Assembly: GCA_019359235.1 (NCBI GenBank)
Contig: JAHHHT010000019.1
Location: 1-37,300 of the forward strand
Direction: 5' to 3'
Length of the DNA: 37,300 nt
Source: Oscillatoria princeps RMCB-10
GTDB lineage: Bacteria; Cyanobacteriota; Cyanobacteriia; Cyanobacteriales; Oscillatoriaceae
The notes under the pieces were generated by a model. It saw only the letters and a program-made list of their open reading frames with translations. It made no database searches and was not told the origin of the DNA. Shown here piece after piece: positions 1,332 to 33,292 of the stretch (the stretch's first letter is position 1; each line of letters opens with the position of its first letter). A program made the position numbers and the translations under genes.

Positions 1332-2819
1332 TTACCCCTTCAGCGCCAGAGCCGCTTGCAAGCGAACTCGGTCAAGAGATCGCTGGTGCAGCAGCAACCA
1401 AGATTGTACCAGATCGGGGCCGTGCACTTCGCCTGTCAGTGCTGCCCGCAGCGAGCGCATCACGGCTCCTTTTTTGAGATTTTTCTCTTTCGTCACCTTT
1501 TTGATGACTTCCCCAGCACCTGCTTGTGTGAGAGCCGGTTCGCTGTCGAGGTTGGCCAGAATTGCCTCTAAAACGCCATAGGCTTCCGGTTGCGCCAGCT
1601 GTGCGGCAGCTTCCGCGCTATACCCCACCTCTTTGACAAAAAACACCCGGCTCATGTCGGCGGCGTCTTTCAAGCGACTCAAGCTTGGGCCAATCAGAGC
1701 CGCCAGCTGTTCCAGCCAAAGGCGATCGGCGGCGGGATCGAACTCACACCCCGCCTCGCGCCAGTAGGGAATCAGCTTTTCGGTTAGCTGATTCACCGGC
1801 ATAGAGTGCAGGTACTGGCTGTTAATCCAGTTGAGCTTGTCCCAGTCAAACTTAGCACCGGCTTTATTAACGCGATCAAAGCCGAATTTCGCCGCCGCCT
1901 CTTCCAGCGCAAACAGCTCTTGACTGTCTGGCGGCGACCAGCCCAGCAGCGTCATATAATTGGCCATCGCCTCAGCCGTGTAGCCCAACTGCTGGAAGTC
2001 ATAAATGGAGGTAACGCCATCCCGTTTCGACAGCTTTTGACCGGCTTGGTTCAAAATCAGGGGCGTGTGGCCGAACTCGGGCCTTTTTGCCCCGAAAGCT
2101 TCGTAAAGCAAAATCTGTTTCGGCGTGTTGCCGATGTGGTCTTCCCCTCGGATGACATGGGTGATTGTCATATCAATGTCATCCACCACCACCACAAAAT
2201 TGTAGAGAGGCTGGCCAATTTCACTGCCGGTGGCGGCGCGAGCGATCACCATATCGCCACCCAAGTCGCTGCCTTTCCAGCTCACCCGGTCCCGCACCAT
2301 GTCATTCCAGGAAATCTCCCGCTCGTCGTCAATAATAAAGCGAATCACCGACGTGCGCCCAACGGCTGCAAAGGCGGCTCGCTGTTCCGGCGTCAGGTTG
2401 CGGTGACGGTTGTCGTAGCGGGGAGCCTGTTTTTTAGCTTTTTGCTCCTCGCGCATTTGCGCCAGTTCTGACTCCGTGCAGTAGCAGCGATAAGCCTGCC
2501 CTTTATCCAGGAGTTCTTGAATCTTCTGCCGGTAGAGATCCAGGCGCTGGGACTGAAAAATTGGCCCTTCATCCCAGTTCATACCCAGCCAGCGCAGTCC
2601 GTCGAGTATATTCTGGGTGTACTCTGGGCGGGAGCGCTCTAAATCCGTGTCTTCGATGCGCAAAATGAACTTCCCGCCGTGATGGCGGGCAAATAGCCAG
2701 TTAAACACGCCTGTTCTGGCTGTCCCGATGTGTAAATTGCCGGTGGGACTGGGGGCTAGACGGACTCTGACACTCCCGACAGTTTCAATCCCGTTTCCGG
2801 GATTCAGCTGACCAAACAT
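1332..2819 (-). CDS. gltX: Glutamyl-tRNA synthetase
   Basis: Class Ic aminoacyl-tRNA synthetase that charges glutamate to tRNA-Glu. In cyanobacteria the enzyme is normally non-discriminating and also makes Glu-tRNA-Gln for GatCAB. The 495-residue protein has the HIGH-type signature HIGT at 30-33 and the KMSKS-type loop KLSKR at 262-266, with family-typical sequence throughout. The usual family N-terminus corresponds to [16 protein letters not shown], near residue 17. The preceding 16 residues, including [13 protein letters not shown], are encoded by a dispersed 110-bp repeat. The ATG at 2819 and its GGAGG run five bases upstream both lie in that repeat, and I see no ATG, GTG or TTG nearer the catalytic domain. 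The repeat therefore appears to supply translation initiation. Confidence 0.97.
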
Positions 2820-2891
2820 CTTCTCCTCCTACCCCCTAGTGAAATCATTGTCGCATTGATATGGGCTTCTTTGTACAACTGGGATGCTCCC
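2782..2891 (-). repeat. 110-bp dispersed element, copy A (gltX leader)
   Basis: Read on the minus strand, it runs from GGGAGCAT (2891) to GGGATTGAAAC (2782). It matches copy B at 12259-12368 with about 12 differences in 110 bases, and copy C at 33182-33292 less closely. It contains GGAGGAGAAG followed by ATG, the frame [12 protein letters not shown], and the 18-base hairpin AATCCCGGAAACGGGATT (7-bp stem, GAAA loop). Its 3' half is the first 13 codons of gltX. Confidence 0.9.
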
Positions 2892-5804: not shown

Positions 5805-6328
5805 TTGATATCATGTCCGCTTGCATCGGTTTTGTATATAAGCCTTGTAGGGGCGGGTGAGCGCCAAAATATTTCTGGCACAGGGCAGAATATGAATAAA
5901 CCCGCCCCTACCCCTTCAGTACAACAACGGTGCCAATCTCGCTTTTGTACATAAGTCCTGGCGATTGAAAGCTGCTGTTGGCGTGCTGTTGGCGAATCCG
6001 TGAGGGGTTAGACCTTTTCTCTGGGAAGTAAAAAGGGCGAAGCATTGGCGAATGAAGATATCGGGTGGTGTCCCAAAGCTTGTCCCGCCAATGCTTCGCC
6101 CCTACACAAGATCCGATGTAGGGGCGAAGCATGAGCGCGACCATTTATGGGACTCAAGGAAAAGATTACATCCGCTCATGCTTCGCCCAACCCCTCTCGC
6201 TACCTGCAGACGGGCGGGTGGGGTAAGACCCCACATCAATTCGCCAAAAGTCTCTTGAAATACCGGATATACAGACGAAACCCGCCTGCGCGGGTTTCAA
6301 ATGAACTTCTAATAAGGGAAAAAATATG
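5805..6328. repeat. Intergenic cluster of three hairpin repeats plus a REP
   Basis: No gene is seen between the two kinases. Three successive inverted repeats occupy the space. The first has 12-bp arms (5847-5858 with 5900-5911). The second has 16-bp arms (6035-6050 with 6086-6101) with core GGGCGAAGCATTGGCG. The third has 16-bp arms (6122-6137 with 6173-6188) with core GGGCGAAGCATGAGCG. The last two are diverged copies of one family, with matching changes in both arms. A fourth element at 6266-6297 is listed separately. Confidence 0.8.
6266..6297 (+). repeat. REP hairpin, CCCGCCTGCGCGGG family
   Basis: AAACCCGC, CTGC loop, GCGGGTTT, preceded by ATACAGAC. The same motif recurs at 17411-17441 as AAAGCCCGC/GCGGGCTTT, so the outer stem pair has changed on both sides together. 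It lies about 30 bp before the start of kinase 2. Confidence 0.75.
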
Positions 6329-7631
6329 ATGAGCGATTTCCCAAATTTTACCAACTACGGCTATCAAATCAAAAGAGAACTCGGTCAGAATCGTGCCGGC
6401 GGGAGAGTCACCTACCTCGCCACGGAAATTAACACTCAGCGCTCCGTTGTCGTCAAACAATTTCAATTTGCCCGCACGGGTGCTAGCTGGTCAGAGTATG
6501 ACGCTTTTGAGCGGGAAATTCAAGTCTTGCGAAGACTTGACCATCCCAGCATCCCTCACTATTTGGATTCCTTCCAAACGCCAGCCGGTTTCTGCATGGT
6601 GCAGGAATATAAGGATGCTCCTTCCCTGGCAAGTTCGCGCCGGTGGAAGCCGCAAGAAATAAAGCAAATTGCCATTTCGGTTCTGGAAATCCTCAAATAC
6701 CTGCAAAATCAGATGACTCCAGTGATTCACAGGGATTTGAAACCGGAAAATATCTTGGTGGATGAGCGTCTGAATGTTTTTTTTGGTGGATTTTGGCTTC
6801 GCTCGCACCGGCGGGGGAGAAGTCGCCGCCAGCAGCGTTGTCAAAGGCACCCTCGGATTTATGCCGCCAGAACAGATGTTCAACCGGCACCTCAGCGCCG
6901 CATCGGATCTCTACAGTCTTGGCGCTACGCTGATTTGCTTGCTGACGAACACAGCCTCCACCGAAATTGGCACCCTGGTAGATGATGCGGGGCGGATTAA
7001 TTTCAAGCAGCGGGTGCCGAAACTAACTCCGGGATTTATTGAGTGGCTGCAAAAAATGGTGGAACCGAATGTCAAACAGCGCTATGCTAACGCAGCTGAA
7101 GCTCTAGACGCTCTAATTCCCCTTCAGGTGCTTCGCCCGGATGGAACTTCTAAAGTGCCGGTGGTTGCTGCCGGTTTGCTAGCGGTGGGTGTGGCTTTCT
7201 GCGTGCCGGTTGTAATGAAATTTAGCGCACCTGAAGTTGAACTGCAGGAAGTAGAAGAACAGAATGCTGGAGAAGTGATTGTTACCGCAGACCCAAAATC
7301 AGTGAAGAATACAGACAGCATATCACTGAATCAAAAACGGGTGTATTTTTCCGTCAAAATTAACACTAATACCCCAAAAAGTCAAGCCATCGGTACTTGC
7401 CAGCTATTCAATAGTGCTGGAATCCTTGTAGCAATGGGTCAATCCCCGCTTCAAGTATCGGAAAGCGGATTGTTGTCAGCTTACTGTTGGTATGACTTCA
7501 AAAAAATTGACAGTCCCGGAGATTGGACGTTTAAATTTAATGTAGACGGCCAAAAAGCCGTGCAAAAAAACTTGCTAGTGCTATACATCCAGCCACAGCC
7601 TACCCCTCCGGAAGGAAGAGAAGAAGGATAA
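6329..7631 (+). pseudogene. Ser/Thr protein kinase, frameshifted at a T8 run
   Basis: Paralogue of the kinase just upstream. The first frame (to 6985) has K43, HRDLKPEN (H134-R135-D136) and then loses the family sequence at eight T residues (6777-6784). The second frame (open from 6774 to the stop at 7631) resumes exactly with LVDFGFARTGGGEVAASSVV and continues through MPPEQMF to the end. Seven T residues would restore NVFLVDFGFAR. After the kinase domain come one membrane segment (VPVVAAGLLAVGVAFCVPVV) and about 140 residues of probable periplasmic domain. As written, the DFG magnesium-binding motif is lost. The cause could be a real mutation, a sequencing error in the homopolymer, or polymerase slippage at the T-run that rescues some product. 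Confidence 0.85.
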
Positions 7632-12258: not shown

Positions 12259-12368
12259 GGGAGCATACCGGTTGTGGGAAGAAGCCCATATCAATGCGAC
12301 AATGATTTCAGCAGGTTGCAGGAGGAGAAGATTTTTGGCCAGCTGAATCCCGGAAACGGGATTGAAAC
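12259..12368 (+). repeat. 110-bp dispersed element, copy B (rfaE2 leader)
   Basis: It has the same orientation relative to the downstream gene as copy A. It contains GCAGGAGGAGAAG, then ATT where copy A has ATG, followed by the frame [12 protein letters not shown]. That frame continues out of the element and stops at a TGA overlapping the rfaE2 ATG (ATGA at 12390-12393). The hairpin AATCCCGGAAACGGGATT is identical to copy A. Confidence 0.9.
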
Positions 12369-33181: not shown

Positions 33182-33292
33182 GTTTCAATCCCGTTCCCGG
33201 GATTCAGCTGGCCAAAAATATGCCTCTCCTGCCGCCTGCTGAAATGATTATCGCATTTATTTCGGCAGATTTGGACAACCCTTGATGCTCCC
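33182..33292 (-). repeat. 110-bp dispersed element, copy C
   Basis: The most diverged copy, on the minus strand, 9 bp past the TPR stop and pointing into it. It keeps [12 protein letters not shown] and the hairpin (here AATCCCGGGAACGGGATT, loop GGAA, still GNRA). It has lost the GGAGGAGAAG run (GGAGAGGCAT). No gene follows in its orientation, so any transcript would be antisense to the TPR gene. Confidence 0.85.

Follow-up and report, generated by a model that had tools for sequence, protein, structure and literature searches.

A 110-bp sequence occurs three times in the window, by which we mean the whole stretch of 37,300 nucleotides from Oscillatoria princeps RMCB-10 that was analysed, and the question that this locus raises is what kind of sequence can be dispersed in this manner and also stand directly ahead of genes. 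The earlier note on this DNA proposed a mobile or dispersed translational leader linked to gene starts, or a small RNA family. From our analysis, the three copies (A, B and C; Table 1) were recovered at the positions that had been reported. Copies A and B differ at 12 of 110 positions (89% identity), for which the earlier estimate of about 12 was correct, and copy C is longer by one base and more diverged, as had been claimed. A 30-base core was found three times in the window at ≤1 mismatch, with 0.00 occurrences expected (100 shuffles). The purine run AGGAGGAG of copies A and B, a short frame and a hairpin with a GAAA loop were all found; the short frame starts with ATG in A and with TTG, followed by a stop, in B. 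Two of the three copies lie at the start of a gene in the orientation of that gene, the one after copy B being cytidylyltransferase-like, and the third copy is antisense. With a probability of roughly 0.8, we consider the element to be a MITE of one Oscillatoria genus, the putative transposase of which accepts a captured CRISPR repeat as the second end.

Table 1. Copies of the 110-bp element in the window, their parts and the adjoining gltX gene (positions in the window).
Feature	Position	Strand	Description
Copy A	2782..2891	-	110 bp; left terminal repeat at 2891, putatively CRISPR-derived right end at 2782; 5' end of gltX
Copy B	12259..12368	+	110 bp; 21 bases ahead of the ATG of an rfaE2-like gene
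Copy C	33182..33292	-	111 bp, diverged; in antisense, with a TPR-type gene on one side and a kinase-TPR gene on the other (identified by eye)
Copy B, left terminal repeat	12259..12276	+	motif common to conventional MITE ends
Copy B, putatively CRISPR-derived right end	12341..12368	+	28 bases; matches the 3' part of the type I-D repeat at all but one position (GGAAAC in place of GGCAAC)
Copy A, part predicted to be translated as GltX residues 1-12	2782..2819	-	ATG at 2819-2817
gltX	1332..2819	-	495 aa including the predicted element-encoded start; Pfam tRNA-synt_1c (catalytic domain) from residue 17, Anticodon_2

We estimated the number of copies in the RMCB-10 genome (8.49 Mb, 60 contigs) using a sequence-only model built from 65 copies and found at least 71 near-complete copies (≥96 of 110 positions), a count that could be low as 150 of 4,157 candidates were scored. 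Four additional shorter matches were obtained at E <1e-12 in the same genome. Among 40 genomes (its own and those of 39 relatives), matches at E 0.001 were present in three, all of one genus, and the number of matches of any length was 85 in RMCB-10, 93 in Oscillatoria sp. PCC 10802 and 21 in a third genome (G001). A pattern scan of named genomes placed the element in PCC 10802 and in the MAG Oscillatoria sp. Prado101, and plasmid and phage collections yielded no match. Most copies are 110-111 bp in length, which leaves no room for a transposase gene. None of the Rfam families reached its gathering score on the element; at a lax threshold, CRISPR direct-repeat models ranked best with 16.9-18.9 bits and E-values of 0.15-0.62, near chance. 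The only Rfam match in the window is a glutamine riboswitch (RF01739; 30703-30796, plus strand, 52.2 bits). Elsewhere in the window (6326-7631, plus strand), a kinase gene is probably frameshifted, with ORFs at 6326-6985 and 6774-7631 and a switch of frame near 6774.

The element is a transposable element. In alignments that included the flanks, the likeness among copies starts at GGGAGCATC and stops at GATTGAAAC. Exact 8-bp target duplications were carried by 28 of 134 distinct full-length copies and duplications with ≤1 mismatch by 34 of 134, for which pairing the flanks of different copies gave expectations of 0.06 and 0.12, respectively. Three genomes were pooled in this count since the species labels of some loci are uncertain, and nine partial matches as well as copies with <20 bases of flank were excluded. 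The signal is sharp: none were found at lengths of 6 or 7, and when one boundary was moved by 1 base only 0 to 3 were left. We then joined the flanks of nine duplication-bearing copies at one duplication and searched for them in PCC 10802. Four of the nine (L005, L016, L020, and L040) align across the junction with 91-98% identity, so that the corresponding sites in PCC 10802 are empty. The L019 and L030 sites are occupied in both species, L034 and L024 gave a good match on one flank only, and L004, with a junction crossed only by a 78% match of ∼110 bases, was not counted as empty. The copy at L020 interrupts an hsp20-like reading frame (named by eye), the counterpart of which in PCC 10802 is intact. 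The notion of a mobile or dispersed sequence is hence borne out by the exact duplications and by the empty sites in a relative. This evidence comes from other copies of the family, the three copies in the window having no recognisable 8-bp duplication (5, 6, and 5 of 8 positions mismatched). Copy B is missing from PCC 10802: the matching flanks are there, separated by 222 bases of different sequence. At one insertion (L003/L177), the site and the duplication CGATTGCC are shared by two species, yet the copies are of different hairpin subtypes, for which either gene conversion between copies or two insertions would account.

At its left end, the element carries the terminal inverted repeat that marks a local MITE/IS group, GGGAGCATCCC(G/A)TTTTTG. 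Conventional MITEs with this sequence at both ends, ranging from 94 to 461 bp, are present in the same genomes and, after removal of the 110-bp family, 12 of them were found with exact 8-bp duplications. The left end equals the MITE end at 20 of 22 positions; the right end equals it at 11 of 18, mostly inner positions. Thus, the element has the left end and the duplication in common with the conventional MITEs, which differ from it in their two proper inverted ends, their interiors and their lengths, and one transposase may serve both. Among cyanobacterial MITEs, Nezha, attributed to Zhou and colleagues in 2008, is said to be short, gene-free and present in many copies with target duplications. 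The element is like such MITEs in all these features but has the terminal inverted repeat of its group at the left end only, the right end being a CRISPR repeat. A conventional 164-bp MITE (L042, 8838-9001), with the exact 8-bp duplication TTCAAAAT, lies directly downstream of the RMCB-10 CRISPR array. A 461-bp MITE (L119, 1742-2202) gave 130 matches in the RMCB-10 genome, mostly to its interior, so that further dispersed repeat families are present there.

Among the 134 copies, 25 terminate in GGCAACGGGATTGAAAC, and in 17 of these the last 28 bases (AGCTGAATCCCGGCAACGGGATTGAAAC) are identical to the 3' part of the resident 37-base type I-D CRISPR repeat, which contradicts, as regards the right end, the earlier statement that the sequence is no CRISPR repeat. 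The resident repeat, CTTTCCTATAGCTGAATCCCGGCAACGGGATTGAAAC, forms an array of 11 units on contig C38 of RMCB-10, and the adjoining genes encode Cas10d/Csc3, Csc2, Csc1, and Cas3' of type I-D (NCBIfam), with a Cas6 match near the array just under the cut-off. The same 37-base repeat forms a long array in PCC 10802, in which the 20-base tail (≤1 mismatch) has at least 236 minus-strand and at least 24 plus-strand matches, one 20-kb stretch alone holding 123 tail matches, and Cas4, type I-D Cas1d, and Cas2 are encoded between cas6 and the array. Compared with this locus (L252), that of RMCB-10 (L042, C38:38000-54000) looks decayed: the Csc2 frame has 228 aa against a model of 282 positions, and cas4-cas1-cas2 is absent between cas6 and the array. 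With the type I-D repeat, as in the resident arrays and in CRISPR1 of Synechocystis 6803 (PMC3575380), the element has 28 of 37 bases and the hairpin in common. It differs in being solitary, spacer-free and transposed with defined ends, and it lacks the nine bases with which the CRISPR repeat begins, save for a run of T.

Conceivably, a right end equal to a CRISPR repeat could be what is left of a CRISPR locus, a leader with one repeat, that was spread by Cas1-Cas2 or by recombination without any transposase. The single repeat-like units with a TATAAT-like box that occur elsewhere in the genome would suit such an origin, as would a copy (L064) with a diverged second tail 45 bases past the element end. 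We nevertheless hold it to be extremely improbable, as both ends of the element are fixed and its 8-bp duplications match in length those of the MITEs with the same left end. Moreover, the 17-base tail occurs at 87 places in RMCB-10, of which only those in the C38 array are spaced at ∼73 bases, and the copies of the element are solitary, without tandem repeats and spacers. The interior was also considered as a CRISPR leader and rejected, as it looks, by eye, unlike the PCC 10802 leader region. As to other repeat-like units, we noticed at least 12 further solitary ones (L047, L053, L225-L229; contigs C28, C43, C36, C48, C6, and C16), several of them clustered, that often have a TATAATAAATTC-like box followed, after ∼45 bases, by a tail that is CRISPR-like and close to TCAGCTGAATCCTGGAAACGGGATTGAAAC; these units are like the interior of the element and have no left end of its kind. 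Other single repeat-like tails (such as GAATCCCTGTCAGGGATTGAAA), some of them ∼50 bases past TGTGCTATTAT-like boxes, were seen at L031, L035, L052, and L066 and are possibly remains of another CRISPR type.

The right end has GTTTCA exactly in 116 of 134 copies and GGGAGC in none. This constancy would also be expected of an unequal-ended IS derivative in which the right end (GTTTCAATCCCG) is a natural terminal repeat and the likeness to CRISPR is secondary, either by convergence or because the CRISPR repeat was derived from the element. However, the likeness spans 28 bases and extends past the end motif. Furthermore, repeats of this kind occur outside the genus: in a genome of another family, an I-D-like array (L283) comprises, within the 3 kb examined, 41 units of the repeat CTTTCAATTCAATGAATCCCGGCAACGGGATTGAAAC, which shares the 25-base tail, and Synechocystis 6803 has a related I-D repeat, CTTTCCTTCTACTAATCCCGGCGATCGGGACTGAAAC (PMC3575380). 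The presence of such repeats in L283 and in Synechocystis 6803 is indicative that the repeat type is older than the element, and a secondary likeness is accordingly rated as very unlikely. Among 137 spacers from the array stretches examined, none matched the element over more than 14 bases, and the repeat core was absent from the viral contigs searched.

Our preferred reading, the capture of a CRISPR repeat as a transposon end, would work as follows. The captured type I-D repeat would form the right end, its terminus read inward being GTTTCAATCCCGTT, and would carry the inner part of the terminal repeat, ATCCCGTT, correctly spaced from the terminus; the putative transposase would accept it because ATCCCGTT sits in register from base 7. 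Read inward, the right end is GTTTCAATCCCGTTGCC in what we call the older form and GTTTCAATCCCGTTTCC in the younger form, labels that rest on copy number, duplications and divergence; the MITE end reads GGGAGCATCCCGTTTTTG. Of the six outermost bases (GTTTCA at the right end, GGGAGC at the MITE end), one agrees and five differ. We scored the ends with a weight matrix from 24 MITE ends. Over positions 7-18, the left end scored 11.55, the right end with GGAAAC 11.27 and the right end with GGCAAC, which is the CRISPR form, 7.02; windows scoring as high made up 0.017, 0.025, and 0.079%, respectively, of a background of 437,972 windows, drawn from loci in which such elements are over-represented. 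When all 18 positions were used, the corresponding scores were 22.22, -2.68, and -6.93, and the low values of the right ends count against a complete terminal repeat. The lack of the 5' part of the CRISPR repeat and the interior without likeness to the PCC 10802 leader region likewise speak against the capture reading.

The two forms of the right end differ in their abundance and apparent age. The GGAAAC form, which is one change away from the CRISPR form and toward the MITE consensus, was found in 88 copies, 25 of which have exact duplications, at a divergence of 0.116. The GGCAAC form was found in 30 copies, of which three have exact duplications, at a divergence of 0.147; the difference in exact duplications is marginal (Fisher p 0.048, uncorrected). 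The direction of capture would thus have been from CRISPR to transposon, through use of the repeat as a pseudo-end, and the later C-to-A change (GGCAAC to GGAAAC) may have made the right end a better one, to the benefit of the larger subfamily. The mobility of the element and the CRISPR identity of its end are well supported; the pattern of subfamilies is as expected from a CRISPR repeat that was captured as a pseudo-end and then improved, which is suggestive and falls short of proof.

A transposase with these ends was not found in the loci examined, which comprise some of the loci with such an end. An ISKra4 transposase was rejected as the driver, model NF033572 being without a match in the RMCB-10 genome. 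An autonomous partner was sought as a pair of ends lying within 3.5-4 kb of each other, at part of the 170 places with an exact 11-base end; this returned only MITEs (94-461 bp) and one pair 1,898 bp apart in L258, which looks by eye like a MITE with other insertion sequences inside and was set aside. Likeness to the 461-bp MITE was also tried as a route to the partner and was swamped by dispersed internal matches. In viral contigs, the end motif had one match, within a phage reading frame and with the partner end absent.

Whether the right end is kept as DNA or as RNA can be judged from the hairpin AATCCCG-GAAA-CGGGATT, one arm of which lies inside the terminal region and the other outside. 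The inside arm is 98-100% conserved across the 134 copies, and the outside arm is 79-81% conserved at five of its seven positions. At least 6 of 7 stem pairs are kept in 107 copies and ≤5 in 27, and exact duplications are equally frequent in the poor-stem copies (6/27) and in the stem copies (22/107). Conservation therefore tracks the DNA end and not the hairpin. Although copy B folds better as RNA than most shuffles (-34.6 kcal/mol, z -2.78; equalled by 2 of 200 shuffles), the conservation of the hairpin lends no support to the proposed small RNA family, and an RNA role of the element is unproven.

These data also bear on whether the element could be a mobile solitary CRISPR repeat unit that acts as an RNA anti-CRISPR (Racr-like), its transcripts occupying Cas6/Csc and blunting the type I-D system, an idea suggested by work on solitary repeat units (SRUs; PMC10651486 and PMC11656645). 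The reported units number 2,103 on viral sequences and 90 on plasmids (PMC10651486). Like them, the element has a single intergenic repeat of the host's subtype, or rather the last 28 of its 37 bases, on a mobile element outside cas loci; unlike them, its repeat is a transposon end, present in ∼70 chromosomal copies, with a stem that is not maintained. The stem pairs kept in most copies, the fold of copy B and the decayed look of the RMCB-10 I-D locus, with its 11 repeats, short csc2 frame and missing cas4-cas1-cas2, are in favour of such a role. However, the outer stem arm is not conserved where the DNA end has no need of it, and copies with poor stems duplicate as often as the others. PCC 10802 has a similar number of matches beside a cas4-cas1d-cas2 set and a long array, and a sigma-70-like site was not found in copy B. 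The Racr-like reading is thus possible but not favoured, and from this analysis we would call it very unlikely. A bolder combination would be that the transposon made the host CRISPR repeat its terminus and that the scattered repeats, bound or cut by Cas6, act as a self-spreading decoy (a transposable RNA anti-CRISPR), sense copies in transcripts having been purged and the decay of the RMCB-10 I-D locus being in part a consequence; this too seems very unlikely.

We next compared the orientation of the element with that of its neighbouring genes, which were predicted not by homology but with a hexamer model that had the retrieved loci as its training set; the middle of three settings is reported. 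Of 145 copies with ≥700 bases of flank on each side, none lay within an intact called gene, and 19 were excluded for want of a called gene on one side, leaving 126. The gene after the right end has the same orientation as the element in 59 of the 126 copies and the opposite in 67. By arrangement, 47 copies lie between divergent and 17 between convergent genes, and in co-directional gaps 50 are antisense and 12 sense (p 1.2e-6; 53:14 and 43:11 in the other settings). In RMCB-10 alone the ratio is 25:5 (p 0.0003), orthologous insertions of two species not being independent. The antisense preference in co-directional gaps means that the left end tends to face gene starts, and the two sense copies from which the leader idea arose (A and B) belong to the disfavoured class. 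The antisense:sense ratio is 14:2 in copies with duplications (≤1 mismatch) and 39:12 in those without. As the bias is present in duplication-bearing copies, it is not due to late selection alone and may reflect target preference as much as selection. With regard to the Cas6 idea, the ratio is 46:11 with the hairpin and 7:3 without (Fisher p 0.42, few copies).

A dispersed translational or transcriptional leader selected at gene starts, as first proposed, therefore does not hold as a rule in the face of this orientation, the absence of copy B from PCC 10802, and ends, duplications and empty sites that are those of a transposon; as an account of the family we regard it as highly improbable. What speaks for it is an AGGAG-like purine run in most of 65 aligned copies and, above all, copy A, for which the proposal stands. 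Copy A is present at the same site in PCC 10802 with 110/110 bases identical, and among 28 rows of candidate ortholog pairs (some of them weak or one-flank matches, with L148 in four rows) it is the sole row without a difference, the other 27 all differing. In the adjoining 150 bases of gltX, 149 are identical between the species, and the other flank is not near-identical, so that the identity could stem from a recent exchange of this block instead of from constraint on the element. In two species, the ATG in copy A is the only in-frame start between a TAG in the element and the conserved GltX motif; a second gltX of PCC 10802 has GTG at that place. This ATG arose by a T-to-G change relative to the consensus and is shared by 7 of 134 copies. 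With no other in-frame start, the element would provide the purine run, the ATG and 12 codons of gltX, and copy A is, judging from the reading frame, the translational leader of this gene. The insertion would thus have been domesticated, giving gltX a ribosome-binding-like run, its start codon and its first codons. Copy B has no such role, PCC 10802 having other sequence at that place.

In essence, the element is best read as a MITE with one proper end and one CRISPR-repeat end. A description of a MITE with a CRISPR repeat as its end was not found among the titles and openings of abstracts listed, with most subscription journals and bioRxiv lying outside this scope, and the text of a MITE review (PMC10969869) is without the word CRISPR. 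Transposons (casposons) are generally regarded as the ancestors of CRISPR adaptation. Phages and Tn7-like elements have in turn recruited CRISPR parts (PMC11656645), and the recruitment of a CRISPR repeat as the DNA end of a transposon seems to be a different use of the same sequence. If this reading is true, a CRISPR repeat whose end happens to fit can be moved and multiplied, giving rise to solitary chromosomal repeats without phage, and a transposon origin would be one to weigh before a solitary repeat is taken for an anti-CRISPR or for a decayed array. At gltX, a transposon, including CRISPR-repeat sequence, would in two species have come to encode the beginning of an aminoacyl-tRNA synthetase.
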